From: an uncultured Kordiimonas sp.
GTDB lineage: Bacteria; Pseudomonadota; Alphaproteobacteria; Sphingomonadales; Kordiimonadaceae
Assembly (NCBI GenBank): GCA_947500295.1
Contig: CANMRM010000003.1
Span: forward strand, 62,001 to 126,000
Reading direction: 5' to 3'
Length of the DNA: 64,000 nucleotides
Part shown: piece by piece, positions 10,079-12,848 of the stretch
Layout: every line of letters starts with the position of its first letter
How positions within the stretch are numbered: position 1 is the first letter of the stretch
Position numbers and translations under genes: made by a program
The notes under the pieces: model-generated
Database searches by the model: none
What the model saw: only the letters and a program-made list of their open reading frames with translations
Told to the model about the DNA's origin: nothing

Positions 10079-10615
10079 ATGCTGGACCGCTTTCGCTCAT
10101 TGATTATTGGCCTGAGCCTGATTGTTATAGTCGGGCTGCTGGCCGTTTATTTCATCGTGCAGCTGGGCGGCGGCGAAGACATTTTTGGCGGCCGGGAAGG
10201 GTCCTTGCCGCCGGTTGAATTCACTTCACTAGACTATTCGCCGGACGACGTTGGCTATCTGATGTGTCCGCCGGAAGCCTGTGGCAGCGCGGTTGCTGAC
10301 AGTGTGTCTCCCGTTTTTCCGGTAGATGCCGGGCAACTCAGGCAGCTGCTGGCAGATTTCGCTGACAGTAATCCGACGATAGAAACGTTTCGTTTTAATC
10401 TGCCGGATAATCAGTTTGATTTTACGGAGCGCCTGCCAGGTCAAACGTTTCCCGCTGTAGTGACCATCAAGGTTATTGAGGTGGACGCCTACAATTCAAC
10501 GATTGCGGTCTATAGTCGGCAGCCCGTGGGGCGCAGTGCAAAACCAGACCATGGTGACCGCGTAACCCGGTGGCTCAGAGTGCTGCTGACCGCGACTGGC
10601 GCGCCGCAAACCTAG
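10079..10615 (+). CDS. DUF1499 family membrane-anchored protein
   Basis: 178 residues with a single N-terminal transmembrane helix and the DUF1499 pattern: YLMCPPEACG near residue 60, VSPVFPVDAGQLRQLL, and the C-terminal SRQPVGRSAKPDHGDRV. Function is unknown in the family. It follows the SCP2 gene by 17 bases with CAGGA before the ATG, consistent with an operon. It is the last gene before the divergent metallothionein. Confidence 0.85.
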   Translation: MLDRFRSLIIGLSLIVIVGLLAVYFIVQLGGGEDIFGGREGSLPPVEFTSLDYSPDDVGYLMCPPEACGSAVADSVSPVFPVDAGQLRQLLADFADSNPTIETFRFNLPDNQFDFTERLPGQTFPAVVTIKVIEVDAYNSTIAVYSRQPVGRSAKPDHGDRVTRWLRVLLTATGAPQT

Positions 10616-10663
10616 TCCCTGAATCGCGCATAAACACCTGCAATATGAAAGCCGGCTAGCTGG

Positions 10664-10686
10664 AAAACCCGCACGCAACATGCGGG
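10664..10686 (-). terminator. Rho-independent terminator of the metallothionein gene
   Basis: On the minus strand CCCGCA, 7 bases, TGCGGG followed at once by TTTT. It begins 16 bases after the metallothionein stop codon, which supports that short frame being an independent transcription unit. Confidence 0.75.
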
Positions 10687-10701
10687 CCTTCCATCCTGTT
10701 T

Positions 10702-10815
10702 TTATTTGCAGCAACAGCAATTGCAAGCCGCGCTGCATTTACAGTCTGGCTTACAATTGCAATCGCATTTCTCACAGGTCTTGCAGTTACAGCACTCTTT
10801 GTTTTCATCATTCAT
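10702..10815 (-). CDS. Small cysteine-rich metallothionein-like protein (37 residues)
   Basis: A short frame, easily missed. The 37-residue product begins MNDENKECCNCK and has 14 cysteines (positions 8, 9, 11, 14, 17, 19, 21, 25, 27, 31, 33-36) plus eight lysines and four aspartate or glutamate residues. It has no aromatic residue, a classic metallothionein composition for thiolate clusters of Zn, Cd, Cu or Hg. Four consecutive cysteines close the chain. It has a strong AAGGAA ribosome binding site, its own terminator, and a divergently placed MerR-type regulator with a dyad promoter between the two. I do not recognise it as SmtA/BmtA (no zinc-finger-like histidine motif). The metal is not decidable from sequence. 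Confidence 0.85.
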   Translation of the reverse strand: MNDENKECCNCKTCEKCDCNCKPDCKCSAACNCCCCK

Positions 10816-10849
10816 GTTTATTTCCTTCTCTTGTGAATTTGATTCTTCA

Positions 10850-10880
10850 AGCCTACAATCTGTAGTGACTACAGATTCAA
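10850..10880 (-). promoter_or_regulatory. MerR-type promoter/operator for the metallothionein gene
   Basis: Read on the minus strand: -35 TTGAAT, a 19-base spacer, -10 TAGGCT. The over-long 19-base spacer is the hallmark of promoters twisted open by MerR-family activators. The spacer region holds a perfect dyad AATCTGTAG, TCA, CTACAGATT (10857-10877). It is similar in look to Cd/Pb/Zn-type MerR sites with CTGTAG half sites. It lies 35 bases upstream of the metallothionein start and 13 bases before the merR-like gene on the other strand, so it would serve both. Confidence 0.75.
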
Positions 10881-10889
10881 GAGAAAAAT

Positions 10890-11351
10890 ATGAGATATTC
10901 GATAGGAAGACTTAGTACCGAAACCGGCGTGAATATTGAGACGATCCGCTACTATGAGCGCATCGGTCTTTTGCTTGAACCATTCAGAAGCGAAGGCGGG
11001 CACCGTATTTACGATGAGCAGCATCAGGCGCGACTTTTGTTTGTAAGGCGTTGCCGCGACCTGGGCTTTCCGATTGAGGATATACGCGACCTGCTTTCGC
11101 TTGCGGACGAAGGCAAACCATGTGGAAGCATGCGTCCTGCTCTCAATGCCCAGTTGTCGCTAGTCCGCGCAAAAGTTGACGCGCTTAAGGCAATGGAGTC
11201 GGCCTTGAATACCATTCTGGAGAGCTGCTCTGATTGTGCAGCACCGGAGTGCAGTTTGCCGGATGCTCTGTACGGTTGCGCGCAGAGTAGCTGTGCCTGC
11301 TCGGGGACATGCGATCTTCAGGTGTCGGAGAGTGGATCGGCGCTGCCTTGA
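10890..11351 (+). CDS. MerR-family metal-responsive regulator with Cys-rich tail
   Basis: 153 residues. The N-terminal winged helix shows YSIGRLSTETGVNIETIRYYERIGLL; the RYYE motif is universal in MerR. A dimerisation coiled coil follows (about 80-118). Metal-site cysteines: one at the CGSM position near residue 76, and CSDCAAPEC in the C-terminal loop. Unusually, the chain continues with further cysteines (YGCAQSSCACSGTCD), a small metallothionein-like tail. It is divergent from the 37-residue metallothionein and very probably controls it. Zn/Cd/Pb-type sensing is inferred from the operator and the Cys layout. Confidence 0.9.
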   Translation: MRYSIGRLSTETGVNIETIRYYERIGLLLEPFRSEGGHRIYDEQHQARLLFVRRCRDLGFPIEDIRDLLSLADEGKPCGSMRPALNAQLSLVRAKVDALKAMESALNTILESCSDCAAPECSLPDALYGCAQSSCACSGTCDLQVSESGSALP

Positions 11352-12074: not shown

Positions 12075-12848
12075 ATGGATACCAATACGCTCGCAATTTA
12101 CATTCACGAACTGCGCAATCAGTGCCTGCACACAGAAGCAGCCTTCAATCTTTTTAACCAGGCAATGAACAACCGCGCCGGACCTGGCGTCTTGTTTGCC
12201 AGTCAGATGGTGCTGATGCCGTCGAGCCAGATTGCTGCCCTGCTGTGGCCGACACGGGCACGTTCCAGGGGCCGCGGTGAAGCGATCCGCAAGGTTTTGC
12301 AGTTGCCGGAGAAGCATCCGTTGAATGACCGTCGTCTTGCCGAGCTTTGGGAGCGGACAGACCAGAAAACGGAAGAATGGGTGACCACAACCAAGGGCAA
12401 ACAGGTTGTGTTCGATTATGTTGGTGATTTGGCGCAGCTCGGTGATGGCAACACACCGGAAGAGTGCCTGTACCGGGCGTACAGCACCCAAACGCGCATT
12501 TTTTATTATCAGGGTGTCGGTTACAATTTCCAGGCTATTGCCGATGCGATCTCCGACGTTGCGGGACGGGTGAATGCCGTGTACCGCCAATTGTTCCCGG
12601 ATCTCGCCAAGCAGGAAGACGAGGAGCGTGCGAAGGCGCAGGCGGCACAGCAAGCGGCTGCTCAACAGGCTACAGCGCAGCCAGCAGCGGCGAACGATGC
12701 GCCGGCGCCGGAAGCAGCTGAAGCACCTGCTGAGAAACCTGCGGCAAAAAAAGCCCCGGCCAAAAAGGCTGCAGCCAAGAAAGCCCCGGCAAAAAAAGCG
12801 GCTCCGAAAAAAGCAGCCGCCAAGAAGACCGCCGCGAAGAAAGACTGA
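12075..12848 (+). CDS. Unknown helical protein with histone H1-like Lys/Ala/Pro tail
   Basis: 257 residues. Residues 1-175 form an unrecognised, mostly helical domain (MDTNTLAIYIHELRNQ at the start, EECLYRAYSTQTRIFYYQG in the middle). A Gln/Ala-rich segment follows, then from about residue 215 a repeat of PAKKA and AAKKA units to the end, ending AAKKD. Such tails occur in bacterial histone-like proteins (AlgP/AlgR3, HctB-type) and bind DNA or polyphosphate. The start ATG 12075 is chosen because the frame further upstream gives an unlikely N-terminus overlapping regulatory DNA. No operon partner is apparent. Confidence 0.8.
   Translation: MDTNTLAIYIHELRNQCLHTEAAFNLFNQAMNNRAGPGVLFASQMVLMPSSQIAALLWPTRARSRGRGEAIRKVLQLPEKHPLNDRRLAELWERTDQKTEEWVTTTKGKQVVFDYVGDLAQLGDGNTPEECLYRAYSTQTRIFYYQGVGYNFQAIADAISDVAGRVNAVYRQLFPDLAKQEDEERAKAQAAQQAAAQQATAQPAAANDAPAPEAAEAPAEKPAAKKAPAKKAAAKKAPAKKAAPKKAAAKKTAAKKD

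Follow-up and report, generated by a model that had tools for sequence, protein, structure and literature searches.

Metal sinks and MerR-type switches in bacteria

Metallothioneins, in the functional sense, are short, very cysteine-rich proteins with CxC or CC motifs and few or no aromatic residues. Among the bacterial examples, SmtA is controlled by a regulator of the ArsR/SmtB family. In the parts of the literature covered here, bacterial metallothioneins belong to a few families, and the cyanobacterial ones, BmtA and NmtA, are likewise under ArsR/SmtB-family regulators (PMC11591864; PMC8790569).

Metal-sensing regulators of the MerR family are characterized by a palindrome inside a promoter spacer of 19-20 bases and by the presence of at least two of three metal-binding cysteines (PMC1526738). 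At the position of C78 in the regulator described below, sensors of divalent metals have cysteine and sensors of monovalent metals have serine (PMC11591864; PMC3431237). In PbrR of Cupriavidus metallidurans there is in addition a C-terminal C-V-C motif formed by C132 and C134, and C134 is indispensable to the Pb response (PMC3431237). In Pseudomonas aeruginosa PAO1, CadR, a MerR-family sensor of Cd and Zn, activates Zrd, a small and previously unstudied cysteine-containing protein that its authors liken to metallothioneins (PMC12301328, 2025).

The window analysed here, a stretch of 64,000 nucleotides from an uncultured Kordiimonas sp., carries a locus that resembles these systems in part. As with PbrR and the CadR-PbrR regulators, a promoter with a 19-base spacer and a dyad is combined with a regulator that has cysteine at the divalent position (PMC3431237). 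Unlike them, the Kordiimonas regulator scores below the CadR-PbrR cut-off and has C113, C116 and C121 as its loop cysteines, and its target is a micro-protein instead of an ATPase. The locus shares with CadR-Zrd the pairing of a MerR-family sensor with a small cysteine protein, though in Zrd two zinc-ribbon motifs, CXXC-N10-CXXC, are predicted to form mononuclear sites, whereas the Kordiimonas protein is a cysteine-cluster micro-protein (PMC12301328). Furthermore, the zrd gene is not located next to cadR, and the pump gene cadA is a further target of CadR, while the Kordiimonas micro-ORF is divergent from its regulator and has no adjacent pump. By analogy, CadR-Zrd can be taken as a conceptual precedent for a MerR switch joined to a small cysteine protein. 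An earlier note on this DNA had read the locus as a self-contained metal sink plus sensor, a reading that is supported by the present analysis; metal binding, the metal concerned and transcription are treated below as predictions.

The small gene and its product

The metallothionein-like protein gene occupies 10702-10815 of the minus strand, stop codon included, and was read directly as a frame with syntenic counterparts. As the earlier note had stated, its product, MNDENKECCNCKTCEKCDCNCKPDCKCSAACNCCCCK, has 37 residues of which 14 are cysteines; His, Phe, Trp and Tyr are all absent. The cysteine fraction of 14/37 = 0.38 is the highest among the 836 ORFs of 20-80 residues in the window, while 40 dinucleotide shuffles of the window reached at most a fraction of 0.292 and a count of 10. 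The ribosome-binding site claimed for the gene is likewise present, as AGAAGGAAA at 10821-10829 of the minus strand.

Beyond the stop codon, RNA folding places a hairpin at 10661-10693 on the minus strand (-25.6 kcal/mol, z -3.56), which is a probable and perhaps two-way terminator. The earlier claim of a terminator belonging to the small gene holds for the hairpin but less well for its ownership: the U run behind the GC-rich stem is just four long, a consensus terminator scan of the minus strand does not list the hairpin, and it may serve both genes because it is located between two convergent ones. The convergent gene at 10079-10615 had been labelled DUF1499, but that label is unsupported, since neither Pfam nor NCBIfam yields a match to its product at E<=1.

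With 14 cysteines in 37 residues, no His, Phe, Trp or Tyr, and a CxCx3CxC motif found in all six of the small proteins described below, the product has the sequence features of a metallothionein in the functional sense. None of the six has a significant match in Pfam, NCBIfam or the PDB; PDB searches returned nothing below E 7, and one protein has a non-significant match (E 0.73) to PF02068, a plant family. The profile comparison with metallothionein families suggested earlier came back empty, as the window protein matches 0 Pfam families at E<=10 and thus has no match to the bacterial metallothionein family PF02069. In the 19 genomes of the genus, PF02069 is above its cut-off in none and below it, at E 0.009-0.037, in three, all of which are without the cassette. 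The bacterial metallothioneins SmtA and PmtA (PF02069) are similarly small, cysteine-rich and set in a metal-stress context, in contrast to the window protein in having a Pfam family.

Promoter and operator

On the minus strand, the promoter of the small gene consists of a -35 hexamer, TTGAAT (10875-10880), and a -10 hexamer, TAGGCT (10850-10855), with the 19-base spacer reported earlier between them. Sequence comparison identifies a CadR-type operator without strand at 10857-10877, AATCTGTAGT-C-ACTACAGATT, extending from the -35 hexamer into the spacer. The earlier note had described a perfect 9-base dyad; the dyad is indeed perfect, but its actual form is 10-1-10. A possible merR promoter, TTGTGA-17-TACAAT (10831-10859, plus strand), proposed from its match to the consensus, overlaps the operator flank, and ATTGTA, the complement of its -10 hexamer, is retained in all six compared sites.

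When up to 3 mismatches are allowed, the 25-base operator has 0 matches in 100 shuffles. The core, CTGTAG-N3-CTACAG, has no other mismatch-free copy in the genome to which the window belongs, and there neither of two cores with one mismatch has a promoter with an 18-20 base spacer. The operator pattern also has 0 matches in viral contigs. The palindrome within a 19-20 base spacer that is typical of the MerR family is present in 6/6 loci having the micro-ORF. Compared with the published Hg-MerR consensus, TCCGTAC-4-GTACGGA, the window operator is dissimilar (PMC1526738). In two related genomes, G012 and G016, the 15-base operator core is identical to the one within the cadA/cadR site of P. aeruginosa (PMC12301328).

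The regulator and its candidate metals

The regulator, of 153 amino acids, is encoded on the plus strand at 10890-11351 and was assigned by Pfam, NCBIfam, structural relatives and alignment; it carries C78, C113, C116, C121 and a C-terminal C135-A-C137. It contains both the MerR helix-turn-helix and the MerR DNA-binding/dimer helix domain, with PF13411 (MerR_1, 2.4e-20) and PF09278 (3.4e-14) above cut-off. The best curated models are all of metal sensors, in agreement with the metal-sensing type proposed earlier, though each is below its cut-off: Hg-MerR (TIGR02051, 102.6 of 150.85 bits), CadR-PbrR (TIGR02047, 97.5 of 151.45 bits) and ZntR (84.9 of 167.95 bits). CadR chains are among its best solved structural relatives.

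In seven MerR orthologues, C55, C78, C116, C121, C130, C135 and C137 are invariant, and C113 is present in six, being absent from G001. Of the three cysteines by which metal-sensing MerR proteins bind metal, two or more are accordingly present (C78, C116 and C121 in 7/7; C113 in 6/7). The C-terminal C-x-C is placed similarly to the C-V-C of PbrR as published. Taken together, the CadR-type operator core, C78, the C-terminal C-x-C and the dissimilarity of the operator to the Hg-MerR consensus point to Cd and Pb as the first candidates for the sensed metal, followed by Zn and Hg. On plasmids, all relatives of the regulator are below 60% identity (424 records), and in the 4 plasmid neighbourhoods opened, the genes nearby are for resistance to mercury or arsenic, or else none is a listed metal gene.

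Conservation of the cassette in Kordiimonas

A search with the 37-residue sequence in 98 genomes, its own included, found no relative at E<0.01, and the small-protein family was reached instead through the regulator, which was searched in 196 genomes including its own. A close MerR orthologue (60-75% identity) is present in six other genomes of the same genus, giving the set G000 (the window), G003, G012, G016, G007, G001 and G008. Among the matches listed, all others, including those at 78 named loci outside these genomes, have at most 52% identity, and the seven proteins form one clade with support of 100/98.

In six of the seven genomes, the window included, a divergent cysteine-rich micro-ORF lies in the gap beside merR, with G008 as the exception. 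Probable homologues of the small frame, a point on which the earlier note had staked its reading, are thereby found as cysteine-rich frames at the equivalent place in five further Kordiimonas genomes. Apart from that of the window, start codons were picked by ribosome-binding site, giving lengths and cysteine counts of 37/14 in G000, 36/13 in G003, 36/10 in both G012 and G016, 42/11 in G007 and 63/13 in G001. All six proteins share CxCx3CxC and an Asp/Glu-rich start, and none contains His, Phe, Trp or Tyr. Their sequences are very divergent, the family profile doing no better than E 0.047 for the G007 member, and their kinship is proposed from position, operator and cysteine motif. In the closest pair, G012 and G016, the sole micro-ORF change is non-synonymous, so that this pair shows no sign of purifying selection.

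The operator is retained along with the frame. All six promoters have the form TTGAAT-N19-TAnnnT enclosing the dyad, whose conservation in relatives had also been anticipated; it has 9/9 pairs in four loci and 8/9 in G012 and G016, where the innermost pair is missed. G001 has CCGTAG/CTACGG as its arms: both have changed together and the dyad is still perfect, so that the symmetry itself is retained. The pattern CYGTAGNNNCTACRGATT is present in exactly 6 of the 19 genus genomes, those with the micro-ORF, and absent from the other 13; run backwards as a control, it gave one match, in G003. An extra operator, TTGATT-N19-TATTAT, occurs once each in G012 and G016, 5' of a PEMT/ICMT-type methyltransferase gene (L139:1501-2159 and L135:1501-2159, respectively), and the 198-residue methyltransferase may be a second protein under the control of the regulator. 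Hairpins after the micro-ORF stop are supported in 3 of the 5 loci folded, those of G007 and G001 being unsupported.

The cassette is found in two chromosomal settings, next to genes for a 178-residue protein and an SCP2-type protein in G000 and G003, and next to cobalamin adenosyltransferase and/or GluQRS genes in G012, G016, G007, G008 and G001; neighbour families were confirmed for one copy of each and judged by eye for the remaining copies. In the window, the 178-residue protein (10079-10615) has a hydrophobic N-terminal stretch, and the protein encoded at 12075-12848 has a long Lys/Ala-rich tail (KKAPAKKAAAKK-like); both also adjoin the locus in G003 (L005).

G008 has an intact MerR gene and no cysteine-rich frame in the gap, and the family profile has no match in this genome, an incomplete bin that is 76% complete. 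Beside merR, at L009:2058-2088, lies a promoter of the usual spacing, TTGAAT-N19-CAGCCT. For TTGAAT, GATTG and AGCCT, 16/16 probe bases are found at the usual spacing in the gap, against a maximum of 13 in 1000 shuffles, with a probe chosen after the site had been seen. The usual operator core is absent, yet 7 of the 9 dyad positions pair, in the sole such window of 347 in the gap, suggesting an operator that is eroding or, alternatively, has drifted. As G008 groups with G012, G016 and G007 in the MerR tree with moderate support (84/88), loss of the micro-ORF is the simplest reading, though not a forced one. The regulator can evidently persist without an adjacent micro-ORF target.

Distribution beyond the genus

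A profile of the six small proteins was searched against 396 genomes of the order (E<=0.1), 385 of the class (E<=0.01) and 398 of the phylum (E<=0.001), and no further believable member was found at those limits, of which the class and phylum ones are too strict to pick up a protein that has diverged as far as that of G007 (E 0.047). Three order hits, G194 (0.041), G038 (0.061) and G052 (0.071), were rejected, having no such micro-ORF and, by a simple motif test, no GTAG-N3-CTAC dyad or MerR-like frame. The class match G762 (5.6e-4) was also set aside, being the cysteine-rich N-terminal part of a longer frame that appears thioredoxin-fold-like by eye; at this locus (L161), the stretch CACGPDCKCGCGCGCGCG precedes a hydrophobic segment.

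The earlier note had suggested looking for the same gene pair in other alphaproteobacteria. Outside the clade, no divergent cysteine-rich micro-ORF was seen at 7 cysteines per 25 residues, a rule that would miss sparser metallothioneins, in 101 MerR loci, which include one Kordiimonas locus (L017) and at least one place twice (L013 = L057). The GTAG-N3-CTAC dyad occurs somewhere in 82 of these 101 loci, suggesting that the switch is common and the partner new. Other frames with at least 7 cysteines per 25 residues in the 123-locus scan were set aside by eye. That at L043 is in a locus not fetched through MerR, those at L051, L104, L108, L109 and L110 are separated from the MerR gene by at least 1.4 kb, and that at L075 is Arg-rich and lies on the strand of MerR, about 350 bases upstream.

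Proposed function and alternative explanations

The genes, their signals, their conservation in six genomes and the family of the regulator are the observations from which a function can be proposed. With a probability of roughly 0.8, the small protein acts, in the manner of a metallothionein, as a sink for a soft divalent metal and is induced by a dedicated MerR activator in a two-gene metal-stress divergon. By analogy with the MerR family, a regulator dimer on the dyad within the 19-base spacer would hold the promoter poor at rest. A soft divalent metal may then bind to C78 of one subunit and C113, C116 and C121 of the other, possibly also to the C-terminal C-A-C, and the metal-bound regulator, as elsewhere in the family, would distort the promoter and switch on the 37-residue protein. 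This protein is predicted to wrap the metal in thiolate clusters, and removal of free metal would reset the sensor.

It is unlikely, though worth weighing, that the small protein is mainly a metal carrier or sensor buffer, bringing metal to an exporter elsewhere or taking it off MerR and so setting the timing of the response. No exporter gene is seen close to the locus, and P1B-type ATPase matches are found elsewhere in 17 of the 19 genus genomes, by a model (TIGR01512) that is undiagnostic in also matching 13 of 14 control genomes. The second 19-base-spacer operator in G012 and G016, before the methyltransferase gene, would also fit, as it indicates that the regulon can exceed one gene. The small proteins vary in length and sequence, which argues against a specific partner surface, and the window's own genome has no second operator core at zero mismatches.

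Cysteine-rich regulatory peptides upstream of other genes occur in other bacteria, and in G012 and G016 a same-strand gene starts about 110 bases past the stop of the small gene. A role as leader peptide, with a downstream gene controlled through its translation, is nevertheless very improbable, since the window, G003, G007 and G001 all have a convergent gene next, leaving nothing to lead, and a hairpin (z -2.24) lies between the two genes in G012. A chance ORF between genes would agree with the small proteins having no significant library match, but this reading is scarcely credible given a cysteine content beyond that of 40 window shuffles and, at the equivalent place in five other genomes, cysteine-rich frames with a ribosome-binding site, the shared motif and the operator.

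Implications

The metal-sink reading leads to a broader proposal, held with somewhat less confidence but still favoured: that these proteins form a rapidly evolving, new family of metallothioneins, found to date in Kordiimonas only, in which each member is tied to its own MerR activator as a pump-free sensor-plus-sink divergon, the sink resetting the sensor. On the best reading of the sequences, what is new would be a metallothionein-like protein family at genus level, while the kind of switch and, from CadR-Zrd, the idea are already known. Among open-licence papers, none on Kordiimonas and metallothionein was found. G008, with a regulator and no micro-ORF, offers a natural comparison. As the family is too short and variable for the models searched and was reached only via regulator and operator, more metal sinks may hide beside MerR genes, and a short cysteine-rich frame divergent from a MerR gene, with a promoter of 19-20 base spacer, provides a rule by which they may be searched for.
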